Source: an uncultured bacterium
Lineage (GTDB): Bacteria > Cyanobacteriota > Vampirovibrionia > Gastranaerophilales > Gastranaerophilaceae
Length of the DNA: 64,000 bases
NCBI GenBank assembly: GCA_902780525.1
Contig: CACZFL010000001.1
Span: 62,001 to 126,000, forward strand
Direction: 5' to 3'
Made by a program: the position numbers and the translations under genes
The notes under the pieces: model-generated
Told to the model about the DNA's origin: nothing
Seen by the model: only the letters and a program-made list of their open reading frames with translations
The model's database searches: none
Shown here: one piece after another, positions 28,857 to 32,351 of the stretch
Position numbering within the stretch: position 1 is the stretch's first letter
How the letters are laid out: every line of letters starts with the position of its first letter

Positions 28857-30647
28857 ATGACTAAGAATATTCGAAATATAGCAATTATTGCTCACGTTGA
28901 CCACGGTAAAACGACGCTTGTAGACTGTATGCTCAAACAAAGCGGCGTTTTCAGAGAAGGTCAGCAGGTTCAGGAAAGAGTTCTGGACAGTAATGACTTG
29001 GAAAGAGAAAGAGGAATTACTATTCTTTCAAAAAATATTTCAATCAACTATAAAGGTGTAAAAATTAACGTTGTTGACACCCCCGGTCACGCAGACTTCG
29101 GTGGCGAGGTAGAACGTGTTTTGGGTATGGTTGACGGTGCTTTGTTAATTGTTGACGCAGCAGAAGGCCCGATGCCTCAGACAAGATTCGTTTTATCAAA
29201 AGCATTGGAGCTTGGAATAAAAATTATTGTTGTTATAAATAAAATAGATAAGCCAGCTGCTGACCCGGACGGAGCTTTGGACAAAGTATTTGACTTATTT
29301 ACAGAGCTTACTGACAGAGAAGATTTAATCGACTTCCCTTACATTTATGCAAGCAGCTTAAACGGATTTGCAATCAAAAATCTTGATGATGAAAAAAAAG
29401 ATATGGTTCCTCTGTTAGATTGTATTTTAGCTAACATCCAGGAGCCGGAAGGTGATGCAACAAAGCCGTTCCAGTTCAGAGCAACGACTCTCGACTATAA
29501 TGAATACGTAGGCAGAATAGTTATCGGACGTGTAGTTAACGGTGTTGTTCATTCACAAGACCTGGTTGCCTGGGTTGATGCAGAAGAAGAAGTCAGCAAA
29601 GGTAAAATTACAAAACTTTTCGGATTCAAAGACCTCGGAAGAGTTGAAATACAAGAAGCTGAAGCAGGGGATATTGTTGGTATTGCAGGTTTTTCCGATA
29701 TTCAAATCGGTGAAACTCTTTGCGATATGAATAACATTAATCCGCTTCCGCTTATTAAAGTTGATGAACCGACACTTCAAATGAATTTTTCAGTAAATGA
29801 CAGCCCATACGCAGGTCAGGAAGGTAAGTTCGTAACATCAAGACAGCTGAGGAAAAGACTATATGACGAACTTGAAAAGAATGTAAGCCTTCGAGTTGAA
29901 GACACTGATTCAACCGACTGCTTTAAAGTTTCAGGCAGAGGCGAACTCCACTTGGGAATTTTAATTGAAACAATGCGTCGTGAAGGATATGAATTCCAGG
30001 TTTCAAAACCGGAAGTTATTTATAAGACCATTAACGGTGAACAATATGAACCGTTTGAAGATTTGCTGATTGATGTACCGGAAGAATACGCAGGTAGTGC
30101 AATTGACAGACTTTCAGGCAGAAAAGCCATAATGAACTCTATGACTAACGCAAACGGAAGAACTGTTCTTAAATTTTCTATCCCTGCAAGAGGCCTAATC
30201 GGTTTCCGTTCTGAGTTTATCCGTATGACAAGAGGTGAAGGTATTATGTACCATACCTTTGACGAATATAAGCCTTACGCAGGCGATATCCCGAAACAGC
30301 GCAGCGGTTCAATACTTGCTCACGAACAGGGCGAAGCTATTCCATACGCTCTCGCTCAATTCGAGGACAGAGGTGTGTTCTTCGTAACTCCGCATACAAA
30401 AGTTTACAGAGGGATGATAATCGGTGAAGGCAACAGACCTCAGGATATCGTTGTAAACATCTGCAAAACAAAAAAACTTACCAATATGAGAAGCTCTACT
30501 GCTGATGTTATGGTAACACTCCAAGCTCACAAAGAGCTTACGCTTGAAGAATGCCTTGAATACATCGGTGATGACGAACTCGTTGAAGTTACCCCAGAAA
30601 ACGTCAGAATGAGAAAACAAAACCTCGTTAAATTCGGCAGCATCTAG
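28857..30647 (+). CDS. typA: Ribosome-associated GTPase TypA/BipA
   Basis: Translational GTPase of the EF-G/LepA superfamily that helps late 50S assembly and stress adaptation. 596 residues, normal length. G motifs: AHVDHGKTT (residues 12-20), RERGITI, DTPGHADFGGEVERV and NKIDKPAADP. The BipA-specific C-terminal part contains GRGELHLGILIETMRREGYEFQVSKPEVIYK and the RGLIGFRSEF loop. AGGA precedes the ATG. The stop codon TAG shares its last base with a GGGGTAAAT repeat copy. No close operon partner. Confidence 0.97.
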   Translation: MTKNIRNIAIIAHVDHGKTTLVDCMLKQSGVFREGQQVQERVLDSNDLERERGITILSKNISINYKGVKINVVDTPGHADFGGEVERVLGMVDGALLIVDAAEGPMPQTRFVLSKALELGIKIIVVINKIDKPAADPDGALDKVFDLFTELTDREDLIDFPYIYASSLNGFAIKNLDDEKKDMVPLLDCILANIQEPEGDATKPFQFRATTLDYNEYVGRIVIGRVVNGVVHSQDLVAWVDAEEEVSKGKITKLFGFKDLGRVEIQEAEAGDIVGIAGFSDIQIGETLCDMNNINPLPLIKVDEPTLQMNFSVNDSPYAGQEGKFVTSRQLRKRLYDELEKNVSLRVEDTDSTDCFKVSGRGELHLGILIETMRREGYEFQVSKPEVIYKTINGEQYEPFEDLLIDVPEEYAGSAIDRLSGRKAIMNSMTNANGRTVLKFSIPARGLIGFRSEFIRMTRGEGIMYHTFDEYKPYAGDIPKQRSGSILAHEQGEAIPYALAQFEDRGVFFVTPHTKVYRGMIIGEGNRPQDIVVNICKTKKLTNMRSSTADVMVTLQAHKELTLEECLEYIGDDELVEVTPENVRMRKQNLVKFGSI

Positions 30648-30815
30648 GGGTAAATGGGTAAATATATATAAAGTTCTTACATTTTACAGAAAAGAAGCAA
30701 AAAACTTTCCATAAGCCGTCGGCAGGAATAAAATAAGTACATTTTTGATAAAATCTGTCTGTCCCGCCTCTTGAACAAAAATACAAGTTGGTTGAGATAG
30801 AATTAATAAAGTTTG

Positions 30816-30845
30816 TGCCGAAAATGATAAATATCATTTTCGGCA
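30816..30845. other. Perfect 14-bp palindrome downstream of typA
   Basis: Arms 30816-30829 and 30832-30845 (TGCCGAAAATGATA and its complement) with two bases between. It would fold well in RNA but lacks a U-run on either side, so it may be a Rho-independent terminator variant, an RNA-stability hairpin or a protein site. Nothing else is seen in 30664-30880. Confidence 0.5.
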
Positions 30846-30886
30846 TTGTGGCACAACAAGCATTGGTTATAATCTCTTGTCGGACA

Positions 30887-30915
30887 TTGAAAAATAGAAC
30901 AACATGGTTTATAAT
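30887..30915 (+). promoter_or_regulatory. Near-consensus promoter of the antisense RNA
   Basis: TTGAAA (30887-30892), a 17-base spacer and TATAAT (30910-30915), with expected start near 30922. It is among the best sigma-70 promoters in the window, yet no plus-strand protein gene follows it. Confidence 0.65.
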
Positions 30916-30971
30916 AAAAAAGCAATCAGGCTTTAGATTAATTGGTACTTAATCTAAATTTTAACTCCTGA
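30916..30971 (-). terminator. Terminator of the small hydrophobic peptide mRNA
   Basis: On the minus strand, a 10-bp stem (30932-30941 with 30949-30958) is extended by TCAGG / CCTGA (30926-30930 with 30967-30971). Next comes TTGC and then six U (30916-30921). It starts 7 bases past the peptide stop codon. Confidence 0.6.
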
Positions 30972-31028
30972 GTGTTGTTCAAATAAGAACTAGCACGGCT
31001 ATGATAAGTATTAGTGCTAGTTCTTTTA
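30922..31028 (+). ncRNA. Putative antisense RNA, type I antitoxin-like
   Basis: Predicted RNA of about 107 nt, from the promoter at 30887-30915 to a terminator hairpin with a 12-bp stem (30985-30996 with 31014-31025) that runs into UUUUAAUUU. A second hairpin (30932-30958) is near its 5' end. The RNA is complementary to the last half of the hydrophobic peptide frame and to its whole 3' untranslated region. This is the convergent 3'-overlap layout of txpA/RatA and bsrG/SR4. No protein frame with a ribosome site is present on this strand. Confidence 0.5.
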
Positions 31029-31074
31029 ATTTACAACTATGTAAAATTAAATAAATTAACAGTAATTTTATCAT
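30979..31074 (-). CDS. 31-residue hydrophobic peptide, type I toxin-like
   Basis: The peptide starts MIKLLLIYLILHSC, has a short basic/acidic KLKE, and ends LALILIIAVLVLI: almost entirely membrane-seeking, like TisB, Ibs or ShoB peptides in style though not in sequence. A textbook ribosome site AAAGGAGG lies 8 bases before the ATG. The 86-base leader can fold so that the site is masked. An opposing RNA overlaps the 3' half. It is too short for standard gene callers. Overexpression toxicity is inferred from layout only. The stop is TGA at 30979-30981. Confidence 0.5.
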   Translation of the reverse strand: MIKLLLIYLILHSCKLKELALILIIAVLVLI

Positions 31075-31195
31075 AAGCACGACCTCCTTTCCTTGAACAT
31101 TAGTCCAAATTTTCAGTTTGTCCTCAAGGATTAAGGTTTGCTTAGGAGTGCCTGACAGCCAAGTTTATTATAATATACATTAAATGTTTACAAAT
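31075..31195 (-). promoter_or_regulatory. Promoter and self-pairing leader of the hydrophobic peptide
   Basis: TATAAT at 31167-31172 with a weak TTTGTA 16 bases upstream gives a start near 31160. In the 86-base leader the 5' GCACTCCT (31144-31151) can pair with AGGAGGTCGTGC (31077-31088), which holds the ribosome site. TCCTTGA (31124-31130) also pairs with TCAAGGA (31090-31096). Full-length mRNA would thus be poorly translated, as in known type I toxins. Confidence 0.45.
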
Positions 31196-31202
31196 ACTTT
31201 AT

Positions 31203-32351
31203 TTAATGTATTTGCATATTTCCAATCATGTAGAATGAACCGCAAATAATGTTCAGCTTATCAGGTGTTGGGGTAAATGTAACTTCACTGTATTTTTCAG
31301 CTTTATAAGAACAAGCGCTTTTTAGTTCTTCATAACTGCATGCATCAGGGTAATTAAACTCATTCAAATAAATCTCATCGCCTTCTCTGAACAATATTTC
31401 CATCATTTTTTTGTAGTCTTTTCTCCTTAGCGCACCAAAAACAAATCTTCGTTTTTCACTCGGATAATACATATCGAGATTATCCCTCAATGCCTGAACA
31501 CCGTTTGGATTGTGACACGCATCAATTATAAGGTTTTTATCTTTTATAAAATCAAACCGACAGGGATGTTGAACTTTTTTCAAACCCTCTACAATAGTTT
31601 CTTCTGTTATTTCAGGGAAAAGATAATTTACAGCAGTAATAACAAGCGCAAGATTATCTGTTTGATGAGAGCCTTTGAGAGTAAGTGCATCAATATATTC
31701 CTGTTTAACAAACGGTGACACCAGAATAAACATAGAGTTACATTCATCTGCTTTATCTCTTATCACCTCATATCCCATACTTGTTATAACAGTGCAATTC
31801 GGCTTAATTATCCCTGCTTTTTCGTAAGCTATTTTATCCTTTGTATCGCCTAACCTATCTGTATGATCAAGGTCAATTTGAGTAATAATTGAACAAAGGT
31901 TTTGTTTAATAACATTTGTTGCATCTAATCTGCCTCCAAGCCCTGTTTCAATTATTGCTACATTTACCCCCTGTTCTTTAAAATACATAAACATCATTAC
32001 AGTAAGGATTTCAAACTCGGTTAAATGTATGCCAAGACTCGTTATTTGTTCTACATAATTTGCAAAATCATCTTTTGATATACATTTACCCCCGACTTTT
32101 ATGCGCTCTGTATATTCCCATATATGAGGACTTGTATAAAGACCTGTCTTATACCCTGCCTCACGCAAAATACTATCCAGCATTGCACAGACAGAACCTT
32201 TGCCGTTTGTTCCCGCAACATGGATACATTTTAAATCATCCTGAGGATTGCCGAGCTTTGCAAGGGCCTCTGATATTCTATCAAGTCCCAAATCTATATA
32301 AAAATTATCCTTACTTGTTATTATCTCAATAGCATTCTCATAACTTATCAT
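31203..32351 (-). CDS. folC: Dihydrofolate synthase / folylpolyglutamate synthase
   Basis: Adds glutamate to dihydropteroate and reduced folates in the cytosol. 382 residues, a little shorter than the usual 420. Mur-ligase-type ATP site VAGTNGKGSVCAML near residue 47. YTSPHIWEYTERI, ETGLGGRLDATN and the DLDHTDRLGDT stretch match FolC. The C-terminal domain has DACHNPNGVQAL and FGALRRKDYKKMM. AGGA precedes the ATG at 32351. Two GGGGTAAAT copies (minus strand) lie within the coding sequence. The gene stands alone and is followed on the same strand by the small hydrophobic peptide locus. Confidence 0.94.
   Translation of the reverse strand: MISYENAIEIITSKDNFYIDLGLDRISEALAKLGNPQDDLKCIHVAGTNGKGSVCAMLDSILREAGYKTGLYTSPHIWEYTERIKVGGKCISKDDFANYVEQITSLGIHLTEFEILTVMMFMYFKEQGVNVAIIETGLGGRLDATNVIKQNLCSIITQIDLDHTDRLGDTKDKIAYEKAGIIKPNCTVITSMGYEVIRDKADECNSMFILVSPFVKQEYIDALTLKGSHQTDNLALVITAVNYLFPEITEETIVEGLKKVQHPCRFDFIKDKNLIIDACHNPNGVQALRDNLDMYYPSEKRRFVFGALRRKDYKKMMEILFREGDEIYLNEFNYPDACSYEELKSACSYKAEKYSEVTFTPTPDKLNIICGSFYMIGNMQIH

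Follow-up and report, generated by a model that had tools for sequence, protein, structure and literature searches.

A probable type I toxin-antitoxin module between typA and folC of a Gastranaerophilales genome, from a family that appears to be undescribed

What is the function of a short, hydrophobic reading frame that lies between typA (28857-30647, plus strand) and folC (32351-31203, minus strand) and faces a near-consensus promoter on the opposite strand? The question was raised by a preliminary description of the window, a 64,000 nt stretch of contig CACZFL010000001.1 from an uncultured bacterium of the Gastranaerophilaceae, to which all coordinates refer. We consider it highly probable that this intergenic unit is a type I toxin-antitoxin module and a member of an apparently undescribed family in Gastranaerophilales. 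Comparative sequence evidence shows the coding frame of the peptide, the fold of the mRNA, both RNA ends, and promoter and terminator of the antisense RNA; transcription, toxicity, silencing, degradation and the step in which the mRNA opens are inferred.

Alignment with the empty site of a relative (G511) places the unit approximately at 30857-31215 (~350-355 bp, no strand assigned). The predicted toxin mRNA (RNAI, ~245 nt, 30915-31160, minus strand) is delimited by the covariance model R1 and by its fold, and would be transcribed from a promoter consisting of a TATAAT -10 box (31167-31172) and, at a spacing of 15 nt, a weak -35 box TTGTAA (31188-31193). The mRNA starts with two segments recognized by covariation and by a comparison of own with other loci, a (31150-31160, partner a') and b (ACTCCTAA, 31142-31149, partner b'). 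They are followed by a leader hairpin (helix 3, 31083-31137), whose outer part is predicted to mask the ribosome binding site and whose apical loop contains a conserved CUNNAAA. As the preliminary description had stated, the ribosome binding site AAAGGAGG (31083-31090) is located 8 nt upstream of the ATG of a 31-residue hydrophobic ORF (MIKLLLIYLILHSCKLKELALILIIAVLVLI, 31074-30979), which is the predicted toxin and is supported by frame conservation and synonymous bias. A 12-bp hairpin, AAGAACTAGCAC...GTGCTAGTTCTT (30985-31025), overlaps the end of the ORF, and TTTTAATTT follows it on the plus strand. Further downstream in the mRNA come b' (30963-30970), a variable 3' hairpin of 10 bp with a 7-nt loop (helix 7, 30932-30958, no strand assigned) and, at the 3' end, a' (30922-30931) with a U run after it, b' and a' being defined by covariation. 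A simple terminator scan (loop of at most 8 nt, T run directly after the stem) listed neither hairpin.

On the plus strand, a' becomes the 5' end of RNAII, the predicted antisense antitoxin RNA (~107 nt, 30922-31029), which was assigned from promoter, terminator signature and fold. Its promoter, TTGAAA-17-TATAAT (30887-30915), is present as previously described, scores 11/12 and is the top promoter-like site in the 2.2 kb scanned. Folding of RNAI (31160-30916, minus strand), which had been proposed as a check, gave a stable structure (-70.8 kcal/mol, z = -6.1); for the plus-strand RNA (30922-31032) the corresponding values were -30.1 kcal/mol and z = -4.2. The R1 match at 30915-31160 has a score of 230.9 bits, and since the window locus sits in the seed of R1, independent support comes from the other loci.

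When 383 family genomes were searched at the DNA level, some ten clear homologues turned up outside the typA-folC context, and a search with the peptide recovered several of the same sites. The homologues share one plan. Segments a and b at the 5' end are followed by a leader, a ribosome site and a short hydrophobic ORF whose end lies in a hairpin; next come b' and a', separated by a variable hairpin, and a U-rich stretch, and a TTGAAA-TATAAT promoter reads in the opposite direction. Their leaders carry a conserved CACxxACTxxAAAT element. Because relatives keep every part, the anatomy seen in the window is more than a chance arrangement. Two covariance models were built from the homologues, R1 and then the broader R2. 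R1 had matches in 72 of the 383 family genomes (21 of 41 genera) and R2 in 101 of 289 genomes of the class (27 of 89 genera), these genome counts being lower bounds because only a handful of candidates were scored per genome. Together the two models yielded more than 115 related loci. Conservation of the peptide frame and of the ribosome site in relatives, on which the preliminary description had staked its interpretation, was found in more than 100 loci, as was that of the antisense promoter, the terminator of the antisense RNA and the mRNA ends, so that the interpretation withstood this check.

All matches fall within the order to which the window belongs, and the named records among them are Candidatus Gastranaerophilales. 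A phylum-wide draw of 386 genomes, the order itself included, gave matches only in that order. When 84,980 named species were scanned with a DNA pattern, the matches listed included Pelosinus, Pedobacter and Clostridia, none of which passed the covariance model; those listed that did pass it were Gastranaerophilales/Melainabacteria or unnamed bacteria, many of them from the rumen. Four pattern matches in viral contigs failed the model and were rejected. One record titled Heliobacteriaceae (JAIRZW010000125.1), which contains three units, seems to be a Gastranaerophilales genome under a wrong label. Three loci (L019 and L021, where the RNA lies immediately ahead of 961 and 1501, respectively, and L376:2346-2581) hold a third relative that is more distant; it has the same a-b / b'-hairpin-a' plan and an antisense promoter, but its peptide is of the MSDFNLSIFLILLILCILKTVLIPKNKNR type and its ORF-end hairpin is a different one. 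As the models barely reach this type, our counts probably underestimate the size of the family.

The mRNA appears to be closed end to end. RNAfold alone produced the closed 5'-3' topology in the homologue seeds. Among 111 distinct sequences, 88.3% of the cells were paired as against 65.7 +/- 0.4% in shuffled controls, and 50 of 53 pairs had two-sided compensatory changes, although it must be noted that the alignment was fitted to the structure of the model, so these counts lean towards that structure and include related sequences. When the alignment was slid, pairing dropped to 39-52%. For the same two reasons, fitting and relatedness, a model-free test was added. In 90% of the 131 loci, the first 24 nt paired better with the last 70 nt of the same locus than with the cross-locus mean; the own partner was superior in 91% for a:a' and in 98% for b:b'. 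Two-sided changes were found in all ten pairs of helix 1 (a:a') and in all eight pairs of helix 2 (b:b'), and the variable 3' hairpin (helix 7) is divergent in sequence, yet it is paired in 90% of the cells. The preference of the ends for their own partners thus indicates that, as judged from sequence comparison, RNAI is closed by a:a' and b:b' in a three-way junction.

This result changes one element of the preliminary description, which had let the 5' GCACTCCT pair with the region of the ribosome site. We found no support for that pairing: the predicted partner is the 3' end of the mRNA, with covariation, and the ribosome site would be masked by leader bases other than the 5' GCACTCC. In silico, the median unpaired fraction of the ribosome site was 0.24 over the loci, and the value of 0.41 in the window corresponds to partial masking. 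Removal of the 3' end left the masking unchanged (median unpaired 0.24 vs 0.23), so the end pairing itself does not seem to mask the ribosome site as it does in aapA, and the in-silico truncation does not support an aapA-like unmasking by 3' trimming. The apical element of the leader (~31100-31125, minus strand, and its equivalents; approximately C-x-R-A-CUNNAAA-U-Y-x-G) is among the best conserved non-coding stretches, and the pairing scheme does not explain it. It is possibly a protein-binding or ribosome-standby site.

Which RNA the individual helices serve can be judged from wobble pairs. An RNA helix tolerates G-U, and the opposite strand reads the same bases as A-C. Read on the RNAI strand, the G-U:A-C ratios were 95:20 and 75:9 in the two end helices and 94:45 in the leader helix, and this excess of G-U indicates that these helices are kept for the mRNA strand. 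In the ORF-end hairpin the bias is reversed (14:64 on RNAI), which argues that this hairpin is kept for the plus-strand, antisense RNA. The balanced ratio of the variable 3' hairpin (46:48) is what is expected for a piece common to both RNAs. After the ORF-end hairpin there are on average 5.1 T among 8 positions on the antisense strand as against 2.6 on the mRNA strand, and a run of at least four T/U follows it in 67% vs 3% of the cases. Codon constraint could contribute to both the wobble and the U-tract numbers, though chance would twice have to place it on the side of the antisense strand. The presence of the 12-bp hairpin had been noted before; it is this comparative evidence, wobble bias and T tract, that identifies it as the likely terminator of the antisense RNA.

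The promoters are asymmetric. The RNAII promoter matches the consensus in at least 10 of 12 positions in all 107 distinct loci (mean 10.9 vs 7.7 in shuffled sequences), and the family-wide mean for the RNAI promoter is 9.1/12 vs 7.8. An antitoxin that is produced in excess would be expected to have the stronger promoter. Promoter and terminator signature delimit a predicted plus-strand RNA of the ~107 nt given in the preliminary description, and the median predicted length of RNAII in the family is ~97 nt. It is complementary to the 3' half of the mRNA and leaves the ribosome site uncovered.

A ribosome-site-like sequence with an ORF of 15-45 amino acids is present in all 131 loci. The ORFs have a mean length of 25 amino acids, are on average 71% hydrophobic and in 98% of the loci reach a hydropathy peak above 1.6, the hydrophobicity figures being somewhat inflated because the automatic choice of ORFs favoured hydrophobic frames. 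Among the codon differences between similar pairs, 43% are synonymous in the frame of the peptide vs 21% and 6% in the other frames, and the pattern of substitutions indicates that the frame is under purifying selection. There are 116 different peptides among the 131 loci, mostly of 19-38 amino acids with a single hydrophobic span. The type found in the window has 31-34 residues (MIKLMLI..KELALILII.VLVL), a second subfamily 19-25 (M.FSITEKALIIILLIIALK), and deeper forms in another family of the order have 35-38. Two further peptides of the family are MVINTEELAIILLILLVLK and MDFSITEKALVLILLIILALKSK.

The genomic surroundings of the units vary. The 253 neighbour proteins form 132 clusters, all four orientations occur, and the units are often arranged in tandem arrays. 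Of the relatives in which typA and folC are likewise paired, G511 is the closest (the end of typA is 97.6% and folC 90% identical to the window), and it lacks the unit (~355 bp) at this site; the unit thus comes and goes. Three tandem pairs (L150, L159 and L189) have nearly identical leaders and very different ORFs, with leader and ORF identities of 0.99 vs 0.50 in L189 and 0.92 vs 0.44 in L150. Such pairs suggest exchange of the ORF between copies. Seemingly, the stretch coding for the peptide has been exchanged, or evolves fast, within an RNA frame that is conserved.

It has to be considered whether the same anatomy could belong to a small membrane peptide which is not toxic, for example a regulator of stress or of a transporter, with a cis-antisense RNA controlling the dosage of the peptide. 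Every feature that we measured fits tight antisense control of such a peptide. However, presence or absence in close relatives, tandem copies, unrelated contexts and 116 different peptides in 131 loci would be unusual for a housekeeping regulator and are usual for type I systems, and we regard this explanation as unlikely. Much less likely still is a structured, MITE-like mobile element with a and a' as terminal inverted repeats, in which peptide and promoters are incidental. The terminal complementarity, the scattered copies and the empty site in G511 would suit such an element, but a/a' and b/b' covary with their wobble pairs confined to a single strand, a requirement of an RNA but not of a DNA repeat, purifying selection acts on the frame, no target-site duplication was obvious by eye at the empty site, and intact ends with a broken ORF or a lost promoter were not seen among the 131 loci. 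On the strand-biased covariation the DNA-repeat explanation was rejected. A leader peptide or attenuator sensing branched-chain amino acids, to which a Leu/Ile/Val-rich ORF ending within a hairpin might point, hardly deserves consideration, as the neighbours are unrelated and in all orientations with no common downstream gene (which rules out control of a fixed downstream gene as a general explanation), the next gene downstream in the window is the convergent typA, and U tract and wobble bias of the hairpin belong to the other strand.

If the unit is a type I toxin-antitoxin module, the following mechanism can be proposed. RNAI would encode a single-span hydrophobic toxin of 31 residues, and newly made RNAI would be closed and inert, with a-b paired to b'-hairpin-a' and the local leader hairpin masking the ribosome site. 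RNAII would start at the outer edge of the 3' pairing segment of the mRNA and stop at the hairpin within the 3' end of the ORF. Being more strongly transcribed, it would bind the 3' half of the mRNA, probably displacing the mRNA's own 5' end, and the RNAI-RNAII duplex would be cut and degraded. On loss of RNAII, RNAI would accumulate, open or be processed, and the peptide would enter the membrane.

From the pairing of a with a' and b with b' it follows that RNAII carries a and b, like the 5' end of the mRNA. As it begins with sequence a, it would compete with the mRNA 5' end for one docking site in the 3' part. We tentatively suggest, as a possibility that is rather less probable than the module itself, that this constitutes a conserved RNA switch. 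The antitoxin would imitate the 5' end of the mRNA, and strand displacement would proceed from the 3' end with the ribosome site untouched. The b'-hairpin-a' piece followed by U appeared in all 108 local folds, for which the control is uninformative, b' being G-rich. It is possible that a local 3' hairpin ends transcription of RNAI at a time when the long-range fold has not yet formed; a local partner dedicated to a' finds only weak support, the own sequence being better than the cross-locus one in 58%.

It is instructive to compare the unit with known type I systems. The full-length mRNA of hok also folds back 5'-3'. This is where the likeness to hok/Sok lies; the peptide is different, no mok-like overlapping frame was recognised here, and the antisense RNA covers the 3' half of the mRNA instead of the leader. 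The hok/Sok fold-back has been compared with that of aapA, whose mRNA has a 5'-3' long-distance interaction, a fold conserved across loci and several chromosomal copies, and carries at its 3' end an anti-ribosome-site element, so that 3' trimming opens the mRNA (PMC6733600). With aapA/IsoA of Helicobacter pylori the unit shares a closed full-length mRNA of conserved fold, the occurrence in several copies on a chromosome, a small predicted toxin and a predicted cis antisense RNA. Here, in contrast, the leader provides a local mask, which removal of the 3' end does not open in silico, and the Rfam, Pfam and NCBIfam searches detected no sequence similarity.

The preliminary description had likened the convergent 3' overlap to txpA/RatA and bsrG/SR4, and this likeness holds: there is a small predicted membrane peptide, the antisense RNA would pair at the 3' side, and RNAII (30922-31029) leaves the ribosome site (31083-31090) uncovered (PMC6562991 for the two known systems). 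In bsrG the ribosome site lies in a local mask, which is extended by binding of SR4 (PMC6562991). The unit differs from both in the covarying closed three-way junction and in an RNAII that starts there and ends inside the ORF, and the curated-family searches (Pfam, NCBIfam and Rfam) gave no match that would join it to them.

By the account given in the Microcystis report of 2025, the type I systems known before it were confined to Proteobacteria, Firmicutes and Tenericutes (PMC12390103). That report describes the first cyanobacterial one, in Microcystis aeruginosa: the toxin MsoT1 has 63 amino acids and two predicted membrane helices, and the antisense RNA msoA1 (56/83 nt) pairs with the end of the toxin reading frame and with the 3' UTR (PMC12390103). 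The earlier suggestion that the unit would be new in its lineage is consistent with this. Both systems occur in Cyanobacteria in the broad sense and direct their antisense RNA, which in the unit is a predicted one, to this 3' part of the mRNA, whereas the peptides found here, of 15-45 amino acids and mostly of 19-38 with one hydrophobic span, are set apart from MsoT1 by description.

Very short hydrophobic peptides are known from the enterobacterial systems Ibs/Sib, TisB/IstR-1, ZorO/OrzO and TimP/TimR. Their RNA layout differs from that of the unit. Repeated loci are a point of likeness with Ibs/Sib and Zor/Orz, and a masked ribosome site with TimP, in whose transcript it is also masked (PMC11228461).

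That no named family could be recognised, as the preliminary description had it, agrees with our searches. Rfam gave no match at gathering and E-value thresholds, and Pfam/NCBIfam only meaningless sub-threshold matches. Plasmids and phages contained no match to the 31-residue peptide (tblastn) or to the locus (blastn). Nothing on type I systems in Melainabacteria was found in the literature searched, and the papers naming Gastranaerophilales together with toxin-antitoxin had, by title and abstract, other subjects.

If our interpretation is true, these loci represent a large, independently structured type I family in a non-photosynthetic sister lineage of Cyanobacteria that inhabits the guts of animals. 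The natural variants (more than 100 distinct RNAs and 116 peptides) would be enough to compare mRNA closure, antisense specificity and the requirements of the peptide. The covariance model can be used for annotation, and wobble bias can tell from the sequence alone which strand a hairpin serves.

Two observations concern the DNA next to the unit. The intergenic stretch between typA and the unit (30649-30810) is similar to two places in a congener (G128); it is single-copy here and mostly missing from G511. Beside it, at 30819-30846, there is a near-perfect hairpin (CCGAAAATGATAAATATCATTTTCGG), which is kept in G511 and is probably the common terminator of the convergent typA and folC genes.
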